Origin: Crossaster papposus
Taxonomy: Eukaryota; Echinodermata; Asteroidea; Velatida; Solasteridae
DNA: 64,000 nucleotides
Assembly (NCBI GenBank): GCA_037893245.1
Contig: JBAIAA010000781.1
Coordinates: 310,001 to 374,000, forward strand
Reading direction: 5' to 3'
The notes under the pieces: generated by a model
Seen by the model: the letters and a program-made list of their open reading frames with translations, nothing else
What the model was told of the DNA's origin: nothing
Database searches by the model: none
Part shown: one piece after another, positions 3,440 through 50,384 of the stretch
Position numbering within the stretch: position 1 is the first letter of the stretch
Layout: each line of letters starts with the position of its first letter
Translations under genes and position numbers: made by a program

Positions 3440-3745
3440 CAGAAAGCCATGATGATGATGATGATGATCATTCATTTGTAAAGCGCCATCTATCTAGTTG
3501 CCTATTCCGAGGCGCTGCCAGGAACACCGGGGCGAACCCCTTCTCTTAGCGAAGAGTGTTACTGGGTTCTTTTACGTGCATTACACAACGCACGGGACCT
3601 ACAGCTTTACGTCCCATCCGAAGGACGAAGCAATAGTGGTTTAATTGCCTTGCTTAAGGACACACGTGTCGACACCGGGACTCAAACCCACGCTCTGCGG
3701 AACAGAAATACGAGTTCTTAACCGCCCGGCCACGACACTCCACAT
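3440..3745 (-). repeat. tRNA-derived SINE (family 1), minus orientation
   Basis: Read on the minus strand it has a tRNA-like head with A-box-like TGGCCGGGCGG and B-box-like GGGTTTGAGTCCCGG, a body containing CCTTAAGCAAGGCAATTAA and GGACGTAAAGCTGTAGGTCC, and ends in an (ATC)n tail, seen here as (GAT)n at 3449-3470. The plus-orientation copy at 62484-62735 and a fragment at 31346-31500 match it. Confidence 0.75.
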
Positions 3746-4691: not shown

Positions 4692-4965
4692 CGCATCTTG
4701 GGGCCCAGAAGCCAATTTCATAAAACATGCAAGCACACAAATTGCTTAGCATGCAAATTCTTCCTTGGGAAAAAAACATTAAGGTTACAAATAAAATATT
4801 TAGGTGATGTTTATCATTTGTGACTGATAATATTCAGCTGGTTTTTGCTTAGCATGAAAGCACATGAAGTTTTGGCTGGTAACCTGTTTTTACTTCGAGC
4901 AAAGCTATTTTTGTGCTAAGCAAATAGACGTGCTCACATGTCGTATTAAATTAGCCCCAGGTTGC
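4692..4965 (+). mobile_element. Degenerate CAATTTCAT-type MITE (family M2)
   Basis: It shares with the better M2 copies (14431-14673, 39289-39530, 44184-44420, 63668-63914) the blocks GCCAATTTCATA, TTGCTTAGCATG, CAGCTGGTTTTTGCTTAGCATG (split over positions) and TTGGCTGGTAACCTGTTTTT. The ends are eroded. Confidence 0.55.
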
Positions 4966-27295: not shown

Positions 27296-29230
27296 CATCA
27301 CAATTGCCAAACTGCTACAGCTGAGACGAACGTGGTGTTGGGATACCGGTGGCTTGTTACTTTTGTTAAACACAGTCTCCATTCCGACTTTATAAACAAA
27401 ACTGCATTAACGAAACCGATGCTGAAACAAAGTTGTGGTATGGATAACGACATATAAAAAGGACGGCCCTTACAAATAGCGCCCTCTAGAATATTAGTTC
27501 GTTTACTGAACACAGGCTTCGTTCCGACTTTATAAACAAAACTGCATTAACGAAACCAAAGCTGAAACAAAGTTGCGGTATGGATAACTCCATATGAAAT
27601 TAACGGTCCTTACAAATAGCGCCCTCTAGAATATTAGACCGTTTACTGAACACAGGCTTCGTTCCGACTTTATAAACAAAACTGCATTAACGAAACCAAA
27701 GCTGAAACAAAGTTGCGGTATGGATAACTCCATATGAAATTAACGGTCCTTACAAATAGCGCCCTCTAGAATATTAGACCGTTTACTGAACACAGGCTTC
27801 GTTCCGACTTTATAAACAAAACTGCATTAACGAAACCGATGCTGAAAAAAGTTGTGGTATGGACAACGCCATATGAAATTAACGGTCCTTACAAATAGCG
27901 CCCTCTAGAATATTAGACCGTTTACTGAACACAGGCTTCGTTCCGACATTATAAACAAAACTGCATTAACGAAACCAAAGCTGAAACAAAGTTGCGGTAT
28001 GGATAACTCCATATGAAATTAACGGTCCTTACAAATAGCGCCCTCTAGAATATTAGACCGTTTACTGAACACAGGCTTCGTTCCGACTTTATAAACAAAA
28101 CTGCATTAACGAAACCAAAGCTGAAACAAAGTTGCGGTATGGATAACGCCATATGAAATTAACGGTCCTTACAAATAGCGCCCTCTAGAATATAGACCGT
28201 TTACTGAACACAGGCTTCGTTCCGACTTTATAAACGAAACTGCATTAACGAAACCGATGCTGAAACAAAGTTGTGGTATGGACAACGCCATATGAAATTA
28301 ACGGTCCTTACAAATAGCGCCCTCTAGAATATTAGACCGTTTACTGAACACAGGCTTCGTTCCGACATTATAAACAAAACTGCATTAACGAAACCAAAGC
28401 TGAAACAAAGTTGCGGTATGGATAACTCCATATGAAATTAACGGTCCTTACAAATAGCGCCCTCTAGAATATTAGACCGTTTACTGAACACAGGCTTCGT
28501 TCCGACTTTATAAACAAAACTGCATTAACGAAACCGATGCTGAAACAAAATCGTGGTATGGATAACGCCATATGAAATTAACGGTCCTTACAAATAGCGC
28601 CCTCTAGAATATAGACCGTTTACTGAACACAGGCTTCGTTCCGACTTTATAAACGAAACTGCATTAACGAAACCGATGCTGAAACAAAGTTGTGGTATGG
28701 ACAACGCCATATGAAATTAACGGTCCTTACAAATAGCGCCCTCTAGAATATTAGACCGTTTACTGAACACAGGCTTCGTTCCGACATTATAAACAAAACT
28801 GCATTAACGAAACCAAAGCTGAAACAAAGTTGCGGTATGGATAACTCCATATGAAATTAACGGTCCTTACAAATAGCGCCCTCTAGAATATTAGACCGTT
28901 TACTGAACACAGGCTTCGTTCCGACTTTATAAACAAAACTGCATTAACGAAACCGATACTGAAACAAAATCGTGGTATGGATAACGCCATATGAAATTAA
29001 CGGTCCTTACAAATAGCGCCCTCTAGAATATTAGACCGTTTACTGAACACAGGCTTCGTTCCGACTTTATAAACGAAACTGCATTAACGAAACCTATGCT
29101 GAAACAAAGTTGTGGTATAGACAACGGCATATGAAATTAACGGTCCTTACAAATAGCGCCCTCTACAATATTAGACCGTTTATTAAACACAGGCTCCGTT
29201 CCAACTGTATTACAATTGCCAAACTGCTAC
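27296..29230 (+). repeat. 140-bp satellite array with higher-order structure
   Basis: About 13 monomers, with ACACAGGCTTCGTTCCGAC starting near 27512, 27652, 27792, 27931, 28071, 28210, 28350, 28490, 28629, 28769, 28909 and 29049: a period of 139-140 bp. Each monomer contains AAATAGCGCCCTCTAGAATA. Variants repeat as groups of three (about 419 bp): monomers at 28210-28489 and 28629-28908 share the same order of GACAACGCC, GATAACTCC and AAAATCGTGG forms. Diverged half-units flank both ends. Confidence 0.95.
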
Positions 29231-41639: not shown

Positions 41640-41745
41640 AAGAAAATGTGTAAAAGAAAAAGTCAAACGTTAATCGGATTCGAACCGCAGACCTTTCGAT
41701 CCATAGCTCTCCTCTCTACCAACTATATGCTATTGGCGAGTTGGT
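41640..41745 (-). repeat. tRNA-like sequence, minus orientation
   Basis: On the minus strand, TAGTTGGTAGAGAGG is A-box-like and GGTCTGCGGTTCGAATCCG contains a B-box. The stems do not pair well enough to call a functional tRNA gene; it is probably a SINE head or tRNA pseudogene. Confidence 0.4.
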
Positions 41746-42149
41746 TGAAGAAGCCGTTCTTTATAATTCTTTATAATTCTTTATAGTTCTTTAATGTATA
41801 CGAGTTGCCATTGCTCTATTTCATGATTGTACATTCCTGCACCACCCAGCTCCTGAAAAAATATCGCCAACCGCTACAACACATTGGTACAGCTATAGTT
41901 ACTATACACCAATTACTCTCATAAATCCCGAACGGCCACCTTGCATTCTCGCCCTTTCCCCTGAAACCTCGTAAATTATTTTACAGTTGGCTAGCATTAT
42001 GTTGTTTCAGCACCGTAGCTAGAATTTTCTAGATCGCCTATATCTCTCTGCCTATATATATATAATGTATATTCTGGCTCGCCTGTTAATGTTTAATTTG
42101 CCTGTCCCTATCTGAAATTTACTTTATATTAATACTATACAGTTTAAGC

Positions 42150-43030
42150 AGGAGAGTGCAATGGCTTAGTGGTAGGAAACCTGGCTCACAACTTACTGGT
42201 GGTGGGGTCGATTCCCGCTGTTTATGCTCAACCGTGCATTGTTTTGTAACTTTATATTACTTAGCTACCGAAGGTTTATAATTCAAGTCAAATCAATCCT
42301 CAGTAGGGAGACCGCAGTGGTCTGTAGTGGAAGGCACCTTTAACCAGGTGGTCGTGGGTTCGATTACCCCCGTGCACCCAATATTACAATTTACATTGTT
42401 TTACTTTATATTACTTAGCTATACCGAATGTTTATAATTCAAGTCGAAGCACTTTTAGTATGGAGAGCGTAATGGCCTAGTGGTAGGCACCCTGACGCTC
42501 AACCTGATGGTGGTCGGTTCGATTCCCACCCTGGACCCAACTGGGCATTTTACTTCTATTTACTTTACATTACTTAGCTACCGAAGGTTTATAATTTAAT
42601 TCGAAGCTATCTTAGTATGGAGAGCGTAATGGCCTAGTGATAGGCACGCTGACGCGCAACCTGATGGTGGTCGGTTCGATTCCCACCCTGGATCCAACTG
42701 GGCATTTTACTTCTATTTACTTTACATTAATTAGCTACCGAAGGTTTACAATTTAAGTCGAAGCAATCTTAGTATGGAGAGCGCAATGGTCTTGTGGCAG
42801 GCACCCTGACGCTCAACCTGATGGTGGTCGGTTCGATTCCCACCCAGGATCTAACTGGGCATTTTTCCTCTTTTTACTTTACATTACTTAGCTACCGAAG
42901 GTTTATAATTTAAGTCGAAGCTATCTTAGTGTGGAGAGCGTAATGACCTAGTGGTAGGCACCCTGACGCTCAACCTGATGGTGGTGGGTTCGATTCCCGC
43001 AGTGGATCCAACGTGGCATTTTAAGTCTTT
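42150..43030 (+). repeat. Type 1 tRNA-like tandem repeats, left arm
   Basis: Six units, the last four at a strict period of 156-157 bp. Each has A-box TGGCCTAGTGG (a full match to TRGYNNARNNG), B-box GGTTCGATTCC, and a TTTT run about 20 bases later (GGGCATTTTACTT). The anticodon stem does not pair, so these are not canonical tRNA genes. The spacer reads TTACTTAGCTACCGAAGGTT. Confidence 0.85.
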
Positions 43031-43095
43031 TTTTTACTTTATATTTTTTTATTAAAAAGAGTAAAATTCCATTTTATTTTATTTTATTTAGTTAA

Positions 43096-43265
43096 CTAGC
43101 CGAGTGATAGCGGTTCGAGTGATAGCCGCTCGAACCGCCGCAGGTTTCCCCGCTGCCAGTCGTTTCGCAGTCCAGGTGCCGCGCCCGGGCTGGAACCCCG
43201 TACCCTCCGCCTTCCAGACGACACCCTTACCACTTGCGCTATCTGGGTCCCCCCGTCATAATCGC
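43096..43265 (-). repeat. Type 3 tRNA-like unit, left arm
   Basis: On the minus strand GACCCAGATAGCGCAAGTGG gives an A-box-like TAGCGCAAGTG; the B-box position is GGTTCCAGCCC, diverged. The inverted partner is 47430-47610. Confidence 0.65.
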
Positions 43266-43329
43266 ACTCTTTATACTTAAAACCCTTAGAATCACTTAAA
43301 TCACCTAAATAAATCGAAAATGAAATACA

Positions 43330-44040
43330 CGCCATCACCCGGATTCAAACCCGGGAGGTTGCGTTAGAAAGTCCCGTATGTTACCGCTACGTTACCGCTA
43401 CGCCACCGGCACTTCCTGATTCGATTTTCGAATTTTTAATATATAAACCTCCGATTTGTACTTAGTCATTTTAACGAAAACAAACTTACCGCAACCGTTT
43501 CAGGATTCGAACCCGGGAGGTTGCGATCGAAAGTCCCGTACGTTACCGCTAGGCCACCGTCACTTCCGGATTTGATTTTCAAATTTTAAATATATAAACC
43601 TTCGATTTGTACTTAGTCATTTTAACGAAAACAAACTTACCGCAACCGTTTCAGGATTCGAACCCGGAAGGTTGCGATCGAAAGTCCCGTACGTTACCGC
43701 TAGGCCATCGTCACTTCCGGATTTGATTTTCAAATTTTAAATATATAAACCTTCGATTTGTACTTAGTCATTTTAACGAAAACAAACTTACCGCAACCGT
43801 TTCAGGATTCGAACCCGGAAGGTTGCGATCGAAAGTCCCGTACGTTACCGCTAGGCCACCGTCCCTTCCGGATTTGATTTTCAAATTTTAAATATATAAA
43901 CCTTCGATTTGTACTTAGTCATTTTAACGAAAACAAACTTACCGCAACCGTTTCAGGATTCGAACCCAAAAGGTTGCGATCGAAAGTCCCGTAAATTACC
44001 GCTAGGCCACCGTCACTTCCGGATTCGATTTTCGAATTTT
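43330..44040 (-). repeat. Type 2 tRNA-like tandem repeats, left arm
   Basis: Five units at 150 bp on the minus strand, each with A-box TGGCCTAGCGG, ACTTTCGATCGCAACCT, B-box GGTTCGAATCC and, about 30 bases later, a T-run within GTTTTCGTT. The outermost copy has an internal duplication of TTACCGCTACG. Confidence 0.85.
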
Positions 44041-44183
44041 AAATATATCAAACTTCGATTTGTACTTTAAATTGTGTTTTACTAAAATGCACAAAATAAA
44101 CAAGCACAAATAATAGCGCCTTGCTTTTGTTGCAGGCCAAGCAACAATGGAAGGGAGGAAACAAGGCGTCGCCCTAAGCCTTG

Positions 44184-44420
44184 GGGCCAATTTCATAGAG
44201 CTGCTAAGCACAAAAATTTGCTTAGCATGACAATTTGTCCTTGGCAAAAACAAGGTTACAGACCAAATTGTCGCCTGTTCTTTATTGTTCTGGATTGATA
44301 ATCAGTTGTTTTTTTGCTTTGCATGAAAAACACGTATAATTTTGGCTGGTAACCTGTTTTTAATGAGCAAGACTTTTTTATGCTAAGGTTTTGCTTAGCA
44401 GCTCTATGAAATTGGCCCCT
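44184..44420 (+). mobile_element. CAATTTCAT-type MITE (family M2) nested in foldback arm
   Basis: It starts GGGGCCAATTTCATAGAGCT and ends AGCTCTATGAAATTGGCCCC. It splits the left arm only, so it arrived after the arms were formed. Confidence 0.85.
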
Positions 44421-44499
44421 GATCCCCGAGTGACCAGTACGTGCCTTGAACCTGTACTATAGTACAGTCAACATAATAATGCTCGGTCAACACTCATAT

Positions 44500-45470
44500 C
44501 TGCCCACCATTTTTGCATAATTATAATATTTTGACCTAATCTGCATACAAATGCAAGGCTAACCTCTTATCAATTAATTCAAGGGACATTTGAGACATTT
44601 TTGCATAATTATCATATTTTTTGCATAATTATCATATTTTGACCTAATTTGCATACAAATGCAAGGCTAACCCCTTATTAATTTATTTAAGGAACATTTG
44701 AGACATTTTTTCATAATTATCATATTTTGACGTAATTTGCATACAAATGCAAGGCTAACCTCTTATCAGTTAATTAAAAGGACATTTGAGACATTTTTGC
44801 ATAATTATCATATTTGTTGCATAATTATCATATTTTGACCTAATTTGCATACAAATGCAAGGCTAACCCCTTATCAATTAATTAAAAGGACATTTGAGAC
44901 ATTTTTGCATAATTATCATATTTTTTGCATAATTATCATATTTTGACCTAATTTGCATACAAATGCAATGCTAACCCCTTATCAATTAATTTAAGGGACA
45001 TTTGAGACATTTTTCATAATTATTATATTTTGACGTAATTTGCATACAAATATGCAAGGCTAACCTCTTATCAATTACTTTAAGGGACATTTGAGACGTT
45101 TTTGCATAATTATCATATTTTGACCTAATTTGCATACAAATGCAAGGCTAACCTCTTATCAATTAATTAAAAGGACATTTGAGACATTTTTGCATAATTA
45201 TCATATTTTTTGCATAATTATCATATTTTGACCTAATTTGCATACAAATGCAATGCTAACCCCTTATCAATTAATTTAAGGGAGATTTGAGACATTTTTC
45301 CATAATTATCATATTTTGACCTAATTTGCATACAAATGCAAGTCTAACCTCATCAATTAAATAAAGGGACATTTGAGACATTTTTGCATAATTATCATAT
45401 TTTTTGCATAATTATCATATTTTGACATAATTTGCATACAAATTCAAGGTTTGAGACATTTTTTGACAAA
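44500..45470 (+). repeat. AT-rich tandem repeats in the foldback centre
   Basis: About ten units of 85-125 bp. Each has TTGCATAATTATCATATTTT (one or two times), then AATTTGCATACAAATGCAA, a near-palindrome containing octamer ATTTGCAT, then GGCTAACC and AAGGACATTTGAGACA. Not inverted; it forms the loop between the two arms. Confidence 0.9.
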
Positions 45471-46074
45471 ATCATTTACAAACTTTTTGTTTTCGCAGAC
45501 ATGTATTTGTAAGGCTAACCCTAATGTTGCCCTAATTTATTAATTATGCAAGGTTAACCCCTTATAAATGTTTAATTTGTGAAAAAGTGAAATTGTATAG
45601 GAAAGGCAAAGTTATTAATTACAATTTTGAATTTAAATATAAGAAGAAATGTTGGCAAACTTTAAGAAAAATGTTAACCATCCCTTACAGTTATTAATAT
45701 TTGAGAAAAATGTCAACTTGGCCAATTTTAATATAAACAATTTATGATTTTGCTTTGAATGATTTGAAAAACCGCCCCAAAGTGACTGACTGTACAGGTT
45801 CAAGGCACGTTGGTCACTCGGGATCAGGGTTCAGGGCTTAGGGCGCCGCCTTGTTTCCTCCCTTTTATGGTTTCTTGGCCTTCGTGTTACATGAATGGAC
45901 AGGGAAGGAAGCGGTTGGGCCGGGAGAACCGAGAGCACAGAAGAGTCCTCAGGAGCCGCTGGGCAATTTACGTCTCAGTGGAGTTGAGTTCATTGTAATT
46001 CCGGCCGCTGATTGCTCGGTCCCGACGGGAGTACAAATTGAAGGTTGATATATTTAAAATTCACAAATCTAATC

Positions 46075-47345
46075 CGGAAGTGAAGGTGGCCTAGCGGTAA
46101 CGTACGGGACTTTCGATCGCAACCTTCCGGGTTCAAATCCTGAAACGGTTTCGGTAAGACTTTTTTTCCGTTAAAATTACTAAGTACAAATCGAAGGTTT
46201 ATATATTTAAAATTCGAAAATTGAATCTGGAAGTGACGGTGGCCTAGCGGTAACGTACTGGACTTTCGATCGCAACCTTCCGGGTTCAAATCCTGAAACG
46301 GTTTCGGTAAGATTTTTTCGTTGAAATGACCAAGTACAAATCGAAGGTTTATATATTTAAAATTCGAAAATCGAATCCGGAAGTGACGGTGGCCTAGCGG
46401 TAACGTACGGGACCTTCGATCGCAACCTTCCGGGTTCGAATCCTGAAACGGTTGCGGTAAGATTTTTTTCGTTAAAATGACTAAGTACAAATCGAAGGTT
46501 TATATATTCAAAATTCGAAAATCAAATCCGGAAGTGACGGTGGCCTAGCGGTAACGTCCGGGACCTTCGATCGCAACCTCCCGGGTTCGAATCCTGAAAC
46601 GGTTGCGGTAAGATTGTTTTCGTTAAAATGACCAAGTACAAATCGAAGGTTTATATATTGAAAATTCGAGAATCCAATCCGGAAGTGGCGGTGGCCTAGC
46701 GGTAACGTACTGGACTTTCGATCGCAACCTTCCGGGTTCGAATCCTGAAACGGTTGCGGTAAGATTGTTTTCGTTAAAATGACTAAGTACAAATCGAAGG
46801 TTTATATATTTAAAAATTTAAAATCAAATCCGGAAGTGACGATGGCCTAGCGGTAACGTACGGGACCTTCGATCGCAACCTTCCGGGTTCGAATCCTGAA
46901 ACGGTTGCGGTAAGATTTGTTTTCGTTAAAATGACTAAGTACAAATCGAAGGTTTATATATTGAAAATTCGAGAATCCAATCCGGAAGTGGCGGTGGCCT
47001 AGCGGTAACGTACTGGACTTTAGATCGCAACCTTCCGGGTTCGAATTCTGAAACGGTTGCGGTAAGATTGTTTTCGTTAAAATGACTAAGTACAAATCGA
47101 AGGTTTATATATTTAAAATTCGAAAATCGAATCCGGAAGTGACGGTGGCCTATCGGGAACGTACGGGACTTTCGATCGCAACCTTCCGGGTTCGAATCCT
47201 GAAACGGTTGCGGTAAGATTGTTTTCGTTAAAATGACTAAGTACAAATCGAAGGTTTATATATTTAAAATTCGAGAATCGAATCTGTAAGTGCCAATGGA
47301 CAAGCGGTAACGTACGGGACTTTCGATGGCAACCTCCCGGGTTCG
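46075..47345 (+). repeat. Type 2 tRNA-like tandem repeats, right arm
   Basis: Nine units at about 150 bp (starts near 46075, 46225, 46375, 46527, 46677, 46829, 46979, 47129, 47281). Same A-box, B-box and downstream T-run as the left arm. Open frames on the minus strand across them are repeat artefacts. Confidence 0.85.
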
Positions 47346-47429
47346 AATCAGGGGGATGGCGTGTATTTTATTTCAATTTCTTTAAGTGATTTAAGTGATT
47401 CTAAGGGTTTTAAGTATAGAGAGTGCTAC

Positions 47430-47610
47430 TATGACGGGGGGACCCAGATAGCGCAAGTGGTAAGGGTGTCGTCTGGAAGGCGGTGGGTACGGGGCTCCAG
47501 CCCGGGTGCGGCACCTGGACTGCGAAACGACTGGCAGCAGGGAAACCTGCGGCGGTCCGAGTTCCGCGGAGGTTCGTGCGGCTATCACTCGAACCGCTAT
47601 CACTCGGATA
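47430..47610 (+). repeat. Type 3 tRNA-like unit, right arm
   Basis: GGACCCAGATAGCGCAAGTG and GGAAGGCGGTGGGTACGGGG mirror 43096-43265, with a few changes. It ends in CTATCACTCGAACCGCTATC, the partner of the left-arm border. Confidence 0.65.
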
Positions 47611-47689
47611 GTTAACTATATAAAATAAAATAAAATAAAATGGAATTTTACTCTTTTTAATTAATAAAAATATAAATTAAAAAGAAGTA

Positions 47690-49075
47690 AAATGCCCACT
47701 GCGGGAATCGAACCCACGACCATTAGGTTGAGCGTCAGAGTGCCTACCACTAGGCCATTCCGCTCTCCATACTAAGATAGCTTCGCCTTGAATTATAAAC
47801 CTTCGGTAGCTAAGTATATAAAGTAAAAACAAGTAAAATGCATTGCAGGAATTGAACCCACGACCATTAGGTTGAGCGTCAGAGTGCCTACCACTAGGCC
47901 ATTCCGCTCTCCATACTAAGATAGCTTCGCCTTGAATTATAAACCTTCGGTAGCTAAGTATATAAAGTAAAAACAAGTAAAATGCATTGCAGGAATTGAA
48001 CCCACGACCATTAGGTTGAGCGTCAGGGTGCCTACCACTAGGCCATTGTGCTCTCCATACTAAGATAGCTTCGCCTTGAATTATAAACCTTCGGTAGCTA
48101 AGTATATAAAGTAAAAACAAGTAAAATGCACTGCAGGAATTGAACCCACGACCAATAGGTTGAGCGTCAGGGTGCCAACCACTAGGCCATTCCGCTCTCC
48201 ATACCAAGATAGCTTCGCCTTGAATTATAAACCTTCGGTAGCTAAGTATATATAAAGTAAATAGAAGTAAAATAACCAGTTGGATCCATGGCCGGAATCG
48301 AACCCACAACCATTATGTTGAGCGTCAGAGTGCCTACCACTAGGCCATTCCGCTCTCCATACTAAGATAGCTTCGCCTTGAATTATAAACCTTCGGTAGC
48401 TAAGTATATATAAAGTAAATAGAAGTAAAATAACCAGTTGGATCCATGGCCGGAATCGAACCCACAACCATTATGTTGAGCGTCAGGGTGCCTACCACTA
48501 GGCCATTGCGCTCTCCATACTCAGATTGCTTTGATTTTAATTAAAAACCTTCGGTAGCTAAGTAATACAAAGTAAATAGAAGTAAAATAACCAGTTGGTT
48601 CCATGGCGGGAATCGAACCCAGAACTATTAGGTTGAGCGTCAGGGTGCCTACCACTAGGCCATTGCGCTCTCCATACTAAGATAGCTTTGATTTTAATTA
48701 AAAACCTTCGGTAGCTAAGTAATATAAAGTGAACAATAAATAAAATGGATGGTTGCGTTCACAGCGGGAAACGAACCCACCACCATCAAATTTAGCGCTA
48801 GGAATTCTACCGCTAAGACATTGCACTCTCTCTGCTTAAACTGTTTGGTATTAAAATATAAAGTAAATTTCGGTTAGGGAGAGGCGAATTAAACATAAAC
48901 AAACGACTAAGTCCACGCACATGCGCCGTTGTATGATTCGGAAACTAAGTATATAATATAAGAAGTGAAATATCCTGCTGGGTCCACGGCGGGAATCGAA
49001 CGCGGCACCTTCAGGGTGAGCGCCAGTGTGCCTACCGACATGCCATCGCACTCGTCCTGCTTAGAGTGTTTGGAA
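47690..49075 (-). repeat. Type 1 tRNA-like tandem repeats, right arm
   Basis: Nine units on the minus strand; B-boxes (seen as GGAATCGAACCC or close) near 47706, 47850, 47993, 48139, 48295, 48453, 48610, 48770 and 48992. Periods are 143-146 bp in the inner half and 157-160 bp in the outer half. The last unit (48975-49075) lies beyond the symmetric part of the palindrome. Confidence 0.85.
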
Positions 49076-50384
49076 TTACATGTAATATAAAAAGATTCGG
49101 TTTCATTTGCATAATTAAACAAAAAGTAAAGTCAGTAATAGCCTGCAGCTAGCGCAGCAGTGCTGACAGATTTTTGACCAAGTTGGCGCGCATGCGCTCT
49201 TCTTGCTTAAAGGTCTCGTCCACATTCGGGACATGACTTGTATTGATAACAAAATGTTAAGATAGCGCGCATGTCAATTTCACTTTTGCGCTCTTGCTAA
49301 CAAATATATTTGCCCATATTTTTGGACAACATTTCATTTTACTCGCAAATTAAAAATTGTATAAGTTATAACCTTGCATTTTTATTAAATTTGCCAAAAA
49401 TTTCATTTTTCTCGATTTAAAAATTATTAGAGGTTAACCTTTCATTTTTTATTGAATTTGGCCAAAATTTCATGTTTCTCAAACATTACAAATTCTAAGG
49501 GGTTGATCTATTTTTTTAAAATAAAAATTGCCCCAAAACTACATTTTTTCCTAAAAATTTTTAAATAATATTAGGCAACATTTTAAATAATATTAGGCAA
49601 CATTTTATTTCAATAAATCATAAAATATGCGTGTTAATTTGTAGTGTAAATATTAGCTAGAGTAACTCCACCCCCCCCCCCCCCTCCTTTGCTAAAAGAT
49701 ATAACCAGACCCCCTTAAATGTAACACTACTGCTCAATCATAAGGTTTAAAATCGAATAACACTAACTTGTAACTTGCAGAACTGTGTGAACTTACGTCT
49801 TGGCACCGCGCGTTTATAGCCTTGTTGGTGATGGAGGAATATCGCCGACTAAGACTCACTGAACTGCATCCTAGAAAACTGGGAATTTGGTTCCTAACTT
49901 ACGTCTCCATATTTTGACAAATCCTGCCGGGATACAACGCTGCCGAGACGACAGCGTTTAACTTACAAAGAAACTTAAAATTCCTAACATTTAGAGCAAG
50001 ACATGAGACGAAAGAAAACCCCAACCTCTCTTTTGTGGAGGTACGGTCATTGTGTTTGCGAAATGTTGCGGTTTCTTAGGAATTCTTTTCAGGTTTTTAA
50101 AGGGGGGGGGGGGGGGGGGGGGTGGGGGGGGGGGGGGGGTTAGGTAACAATAGTCTAGAGCGCATATAGGTATGGGGGACTAAGGGGGGAGTCCCTCGGT
50201 CTCATATCGTGCTGGGTATAATTCATATACGTGCCCACGTAACGGCGCTCAGCCAAGCGAAACGAATCGCGTGTCGCCAGCAGAACTACTTTTGAGTGTC
50301 CTACACAACAGAAACCAATGGAAACGGTAAACTCTTTCATCCAAATAACAACTGTTCATAAAGGTGTCACCCTGAGTGATACAT
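49076..50384. other. AT-rich intergenic DNA
   Basis: No gene supported. Includes a poly-C tract at 49670-49684 and a poly-G tract at 50101-50139. Confidence 0.4.

Follow-up and report, generated by a model that had tools for sequence, protein, structure and literature searches.

Two copies of a tRNA-like cassette with putative RNA polymerase III promoters, inverted around an AT-rich satellite in Crossaster papposus

The window analysed here is a stretch of 64,000 nucleotides from the asteroid Crossaster papposus (contig JBAIAA010000781.1 of assembly GCA_037893245.1, C781:310001-374000). The assembly comprises 1.02 Gb in 1841 contigs. The mitochondrial COI gene, on contig C1841, reads open with translation tables 5, 9 and 13, but its expected conserved residues appear with table 9 alone (AAA as Asn, AGR as Ser), the code of echinoderms and flatworms, and by its sequence the gene looks like that of an echinoderm. 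Between positions 42085 and 48905, the window carries two inverted arms built from tandem tRNA-like units, and the present analysis concerns the origin of these arms, their copies elsewhere in the genome and the putative RNA polymerase III (pol III) promoters of their units. The three types of tRNA-like unit are called T1, T2 and T3. CR denotes the AT-rich core satellite, CIN a dispersed repeat at the inner edges of the arms, EDGE the outer-edge sequence, and R49 the sequence at 49060-49300. Contigs are designated by C and a number, and stretches of the assembly that were read by L and a number. Pairs of an A box and a B box (A+B pairs) were counted with one mismatch tolerated in each box. The order of the features along the forward strand is given below; MITE stands for miniature inverted-repeat transposable element.

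42084-42150, + strand: EDGE, left outer edge, a variant T1 spacer; inverted match to 48833-48901, copies among the T1 units of other loci
42151-43044, + strand: T1 array of the left arm, six tRNA-like units of ~157 bp each (BLAST with the T1 unit; six A+B pairs)
43092-43319, - strand: T3 module of the left arm, junction allele F1
43341-44067, - strand: T2 array of the left arm, five units of ~151 bp, the T3-side unit cut just past its B box
44134-44457, - strand: left inner edge, a CIN copy split by a MITE
44180-44425, + strand: MITE inside the left inner edge, missing from the right one
44508-45449, + strand: CR, AT-rich core satellite of 88/108-bp units (tandem repeats)
45792-46021, + strand: right inner edge, CIN uninterrupted
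46030-47349, + strand: T2 array of the right arm, nine units
47371-47615, + strand: T3 module of the right arm, junction allele F2, with an imperfect B box
47670-48862, - strand: T1 array of the right arm, eight A+B pairs (seven good units and one degenerate), main part 47670-48721, degenerate unit to ~48862
48833-48901, - strand: EDGE, right outer edge
48961-49081, - strand: extra degenerate T1 unit beyond the palindrome (BLAST with the T1 unit; B box at 49002)
49060-49300, + strand: R49, with further copies outside T1 arrays (C551 stretches, L012) and 30 bp only at C691

The inverted arms lie at 42084-44067 and 46030-48901 and are ~80-94% identical. Positions 42151-44067 align with inverted 46634-48516 at 85% identity over 1954 columns, and 42084-43044 with inverted 47960-48901 at 80.6%; the longer T2 blocks are mostly 91-93% identical between the arms. 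The left arm reads T1(+)-T3(-)-T2(-) and the right arm T2(+)-T3(+)-T1(-), a mirrored order. Within 42085-48905 there are 29 A+B pairs, compared with 7 in the rest of the window; three mononucleotide shuffles of a single strand contained none. The right-arm T3 is absent from these 29 because its B box is too imperfect. The original prediction of inverted arms carrying the same modules in mirrored order was thus confirmed. The same is true of the unequal copy numbers it described: counted by B box, the left and right T1 arrays hold 6 and 8 units and the T2 arrays 5 and 9, with one T3 in each arm. Divergence of this size between the arms shows that the structure is not a read artefact, and an assembly artefact through a missed adapter is ruled out by arms that are 80-94% alike with unequal copy numbers.

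The edges of the arms had also been predicted to match. The inner edges do so in two places, at 88% (44134-44183 with 45832-45881) and at 93% (44417-44457 with 45792-45829), and the left one is interrupted by the MITE. The two outer EDGE sequences match each other as well, but EDGE is not the end of an element, since it also lies inside or beside the T1 arrays of five other stretches (L012, L021, L022, L023 and L024). On the right side, homology to other loci extends past the palindrome to ~49264 and takes in the further T1 unit and R49. The core belongs to a satellite that is abundant in the genome (1209 first-look candidates, of which the best 18 were scored). Six copies or partial copies of the MITE family, with the ends GGGGCCAATTTCATAGAGC, are present in the window (44180-44425, and also at 4711, 14431, 39287, 55316 and 63668).

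We then determined how the modules are arranged in the rest of the assembly. With all 40 candidates of the T3 query scored, 40 copies of T3 were found at 33 loci on 19 contigs, 35 of them near full length and 5 fragments. It turned out that T1 and T2 flank 33 of the 35 near-full copies in a fixed T1(+)-T3(-)-T2(-) cassette; the two exceptions are C499:211k, where no T1 was listed, and C1744, where no T2 was. Two of the five fragments have neither listed alongside. In all 24 near-full copies whose junctions were read, both T3 junctions are placed identically at the level of the base (L022 has a deletion beside T1), although these copies include non-independent ones, four in tandem at C551 and two at C1. 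At the junctions, the T2 unit is truncated just past its B box, and the ATAAA-rich tail of T3 meets T1 tail to tail. Such common base-level junctions show that the cassette has a single origin. Thus, the T1-T3-T2 cassette arose once, and what is repeated is the arm and not the whole palindrome. The idea that the palindrome formed around a tRNA-derived satellite comes close to this result, except that the arm itself is a single-origin cassette present at 33 loci. The ATAAA-rich tail notwithstanding, T3 does not show the dispersed single insertions of a short interspersed nuclear element (SINE), as 33 of the 35 near-full copies sit in the cassette with common junctions.

The T1-arm query (40 of 49 candidates scored) gave 68 places at 33 loci on 17 contigs. 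This search skips very common words, and it listed array loci only and no dispersed SINE. The window together with the first 20 stretches contains 133 T1 and 135 T2 units, and the whole genome probably contains some hundreds. Some stretches (L020, L026 and L027) have T1 arrays without T3. The T2 array of the cassette abuts CR in 12 of the 19 T3-bearing stretches read, and by eye the junctions between T2 and CR differ in kind between loci. A common outer end of the cassettes was not found; their flanks vary and include EDGE, a flank of ~550 bp and a TRIM segment. TRIM-NHL genes lie beside T1 arrays at L019:235-2262 and L027:8372-10000, within segments that also occur in L009-L011 and L020. The T3 loci are clustered, with five on the 820-kb C781 against 0.03 expected and five on C499 against 0.06 expected. 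The dispersed control repeat CIN occupied 37 loci over 32 contigs (40 of 217 candidates scored, locus list merged by hand).

To relate the two arms, we aligned 117 distinct T1 and 118 distinct T2 units and built trees from 77 and 64 of them, respectively. The T2 units of the two arms have a mean identity of.938 to each other,.867/.871 to those of other loci, and.963 and.935 within the arrays; in the tree, the T2 units of both arms intermingle. For T1, the identity between the arms is.853 and that to other loci.828/.852. The right-arm T1 units group with those of C781:659-664k and 611k, and their outermost three with those of C781:150k. T3 gives a star-shaped tree; its junction allele is F1 in the left arm and F2 in the right, while one other copy is mixed. 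That an entire arm was simply and recently duplicated in inverted orientation is therefore ruled out, because the T1 and T3 of the two arms come from different sub-lineages. From these data we infer that two diverged cassettes came to lie in opposite orientation and that their inner part may have been duplicated or homogenised. The comparison of the inner edges is weak, as their matches cover 50 and 41 bp and other CIN copies in the genome are 75-85% identical to the right edge over ~100-240 bp. Since the MITE is absent from the right inner edge, its insertion into the left one appears to be later than the formation of the palindrome.

All three unit types have, in consensus, an A box, a B box and a TATA-like element, although the B box is imperfect in many T3 copies. 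The TATA-like element is located 47 nt upstream of the A box and reads GAAGGTTTATA in T1 and T2 and TAAGGGTTTTA in T3. If it acts at -31/-24, the G-rich 5' end would be the start of transcription, with the A box at about +12. Both boxes have at most one mismatch in 107 of 117 T1 and 106 of 118 T2 units, and TTTT follows within 34 nt of the B box in 115 and 113 of them, respectively. Between loci, the upstream element and the two boxes of T1 are less diverse than the remaining columns (.086 against.207), and none of 156 circular shifts was as low. The same comparison for T2 gave.089 against.164, with 5 of 147 circular shifts as low, a weaker signal. As exact words, the upstream element, A box and B box stand at the 86th, 90th and 93rd percentiles of windows in T1 and at the 88th, 49th and 89th in T2. 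Judged by promoter sequence, the units thus resemble putative pol III transcription units.

These units are not intact tRNA genes: ARAGORN (bacterial code) found no tRNA gene in the window, and the consensus folds are not cloverleaves. We also looked by eye at the flanks of host tRNA genes. Twelve flanks were fetched and two of them (L040 and L047) were set aside, as they come from the bacterial-looking C8; in the remaining ten, five of which are near-copies of one tRNA-Lys unit, the -47 element was not seen at that distance. Contig C479 bears a long array of tRNA-Lys genes (anticodon TTT), in which many spacings are multiples of ~572 bp. L039 is one unit of this array, and L041, L045, L048 and L049 on other contigs have similar flanks. 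C8, which is 5.3 Mb long and probably bacterial, has COX1-like frames that stay open across the whole domain (one of 682 aa).

Taken with the module order and the common junctions, these data lead us to the following reading, to which we assign a probability of about 0.72: the mirrored structure is a local pair of copies of a fixed, ~35-copy tRNA-like cassette that lie inverted on either side of an AT-rich satellite at a single locus, and its units are putative pol III transcription units. The composite cassette, T1(n)-T3-T2(n), would combine three kinds of tRNA-like unit, with T1 facing T3 and T2, and with T2 often abutting a CR array. After a single origin, it would have been copied to ~33 places, probably more by regional duplication than by transposition. 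In the window, two cassettes of different sub-lineages would have come to lie inverted around the CR core, and the inner part (T2 and the inner edges), but not the outer part, would have been duplicated or homogenised by gene conversion. Each unit may be transcribed by pol III from its TATA-like, A and B elements into a short RNA ending at the T run, and selection may have kept the promoter.

Several observations weigh against this reading. Thirteen of the 19 contigs carry a single T3 locus, so the spread was not purely local, and the trees are poorly supported throughout. In L016, at the end of C499, CR turns from + to - and the contig then ends inside the satellite; a second palindrome there is possible. 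The A box of T2 is average (49th percentile, diversity.148), the T2 spacer columns are conserved to the same degree as the T2 promoter, and the terminators, taken as exact words, show no special conservation (38th and 17th percentiles of windows). The B box of the right-arm T3 is imperfect. Double changes in the predicted stems are few (2 and 1 among 117 T1 units, 1 and 1 among 118 T2 units) and broken pairs are more numerous. Fold energy against mononucleotide shuffles is ordinary, with z of -1.1 for T1 and +0.8 for T2, and is low only for the full T3 (-3.1). These fold energies and the few double changes rule out a strongly covarying structured RNA. With E values up to 10 admitted, Rfam yielded three hits, none near its cut-off.

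Part of this evidence is what a selfish composite satellite would produce. There, the promoter columns would seem slow only because the satellite is young, because its arrays homogenise and because of the way the units align, and transcription would be irrelevant. The equally conserved T2 spacer, the unconserved terminator words and the little RNA pairing kept by double changes fit such a satellite. They do not account for the T1 promoter columns, which are clearly slower, nor for the recurrence of one -47 element in all three unit types, dissimilar as these are; by eye, that element was not seen at this distance in the ten host tRNA flanks. We regard the selfish satellite as a serious possibility, if a doubtful one. 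A bolder form of the pol III reading seems to us rather unlikely. In it, T1, T2 and T3 would be undescribed pol III small-RNA gene families of an echinoderm, co-amplified and held together in a single ancestral cassette; selection would act on their transcription, and they would also serve as TFIIIC landmarks next to satellite DNA.

The arrays of putative TFIIIC sites could also form a chromatin boundary beside CR. In the fission yeast S. pombe, the inverted IR-L and IR-R elements of the mating-type region carry five B boxes, which contribute to the activity of these elements as boundaries (PMC4502379, excerpt). Compared with what that excerpt describes, the likeness consists in inverted elements with B boxes, while here there are 29 A+B pairs and a boundary role would be hypothetical. 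The layout in the window suits a boundary, with the 29 pairs in two inverted arms on both sides of an AT-rich satellite, and so does the frequent contact of T2 arrays with CR in the T3-bearing stretches. However, at C781:512k, C849 and C700:650k the array stands on one side of CR only, and at C669 the other side has only a T2 fragment. Moreover, the best 18 of the 1209 CR candidates lie on 15 contigs, and 12 of these have no T3. A boundary function seems improbable.

Foldback transposons with tandem-repeat arms are represented by FB in flies and TU in sea urchin. One of the two possibilities offered in the original prediction is a new class of non-autonomous mobile element of this kind. Its long terminal inverted repeats would consist of tRNA-like units in tandem, and the remaining loci would be one-armed derivatives. 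Some features fit: the arms at the window locus are long, inverted and tandemly repeated inside, they match at their inner as well as their outer edges, their modules differ in copy number, and cassettes are present at 33 loci. T1 arrays also face each other around one T3-T2 in L012, and facing T1 arrays occur at C691; the possible second palindrome at the end of C499 points the same way. Against this, several dispersed whole foldbacks are lacking, with one mirrored pair among the 40 T3 copies. Of seven T3 pairs less than 20 kb apart, one is inverted, that of the window, and six are direct, including the 4939-bp tandem at C551. At five loci, CR arrays were read through to other DNA, and no mirrored T3 was present in any of them. 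Three of these have a single cassette only (C781:512-518k, C849:436-445k and C700:649-659k). At C669:959k a T2 fragment lies beyond CR, and at C691:1501-1512k there are T2 units that are not mirrored, one T1 unit and 30 bp of R49, with no T3. No target-site duplication was found, as 42085 and 48905 share no word and the longest one nearby is an AT-rich 8-mer at 42059/48950. The cassette ends do not agree among the other loci, nor do the T2 junctions with CR. A Pfam scan of seven open reading frames near cassettes, chosen from a longer list, gave matches to TRIM-NHL and GDSL lipase or nothing, and no transposase. With one mirrored pair, no target-site duplication and EDGE internal to arrays elsewhere, the foldback transposon is not supported as an element class and is very unlikely.

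In the foldback Tetris of Drosophila virilis, the tandem repeats of the arms became a satellite, and three structurally complete copies are reported (PMC4079207, in part). Our locus resembles that account in its inverted arms with tandem repeats and in satellite-like arrays of the same repeat; it differs in that a single mirrored pair is present and a target-site duplication was not seen. In Tribolium madens, putatively (peri)centromeric satellites frequently show macro-dyad symmetries with inverted subarrays on the kilobase scale (PMC13081366, in part). Satellite arrays as inverted kilobase-scale subarrays are common to both cases, whereas in C. papposus a single locus shows the inversion and its units are of the pol III type.

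The conserved cassette of three pol III-type units is of more interest than a foldback element. Tandem tRNA-like repeats with pol III promoters have already been described in amphibians, namely OAX in Xenopus, PolIII/TAN in Cynops and Rana/polIII (PMC10702118, excerpt). The common feature named there, tandem units with a tRNA-like part, is found here as tandem A+B boxes; compared with the repeats in that excerpt, the cassette of C. papposus has three unlike unit types in one fixed order and in opposed directions. The rodent 4.5SI and 4.5SH RNA genes have A and B boxes with a TATA-like box at -31/-24, and 4.5SH genes sit in tandem repeats of 4-5 kb (PMC10137851, in part). As far as that account goes, T1 and T2 match the promoter plan and the T-run terminator in sequence, with a predicted start site, while T3 has an imperfect B box; the 4939-bp unit at C551 is comparable with the 4.5SH repeats. 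In contrast to the rodent genes, our units are known from sequence alone. If transcribed, they would make up a multicopy system of pol III RNA genes whose promoters combine TATA and A/B elements, arranged in a single-origin cassette of three unlike tRNA-like units; narrow full-text literature searching returned no echinoderm counterpart. If not transcribed, the cassette would be a composite satellite that spreads as a fixed block and forms a palindrome with a homogenised centre and distinct outer arms, and gene conversion in satellite palindromes would become measurable.

Other repeats were seen around the palindrome. Just outside the left arm, at 41686-41721 on the - strand, there is a single A+B pair that belongs to a different tRNA-like type, with TATAAAGAA repeats upstream. 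On the other side, a ragged AT-rich repeat of ~67 bp occupies 49327-49519; in L033 and L019, this repeat comes after the CR array. Three tRNA-headed, SINE-like repeats at 3688(-), 38603(+) and 62496(+) share the stretch CCTTRAGCAAGG past the B box. The window also contains a 140-bp tandem array at 27369-29210, with 13 copies and 94% matches.

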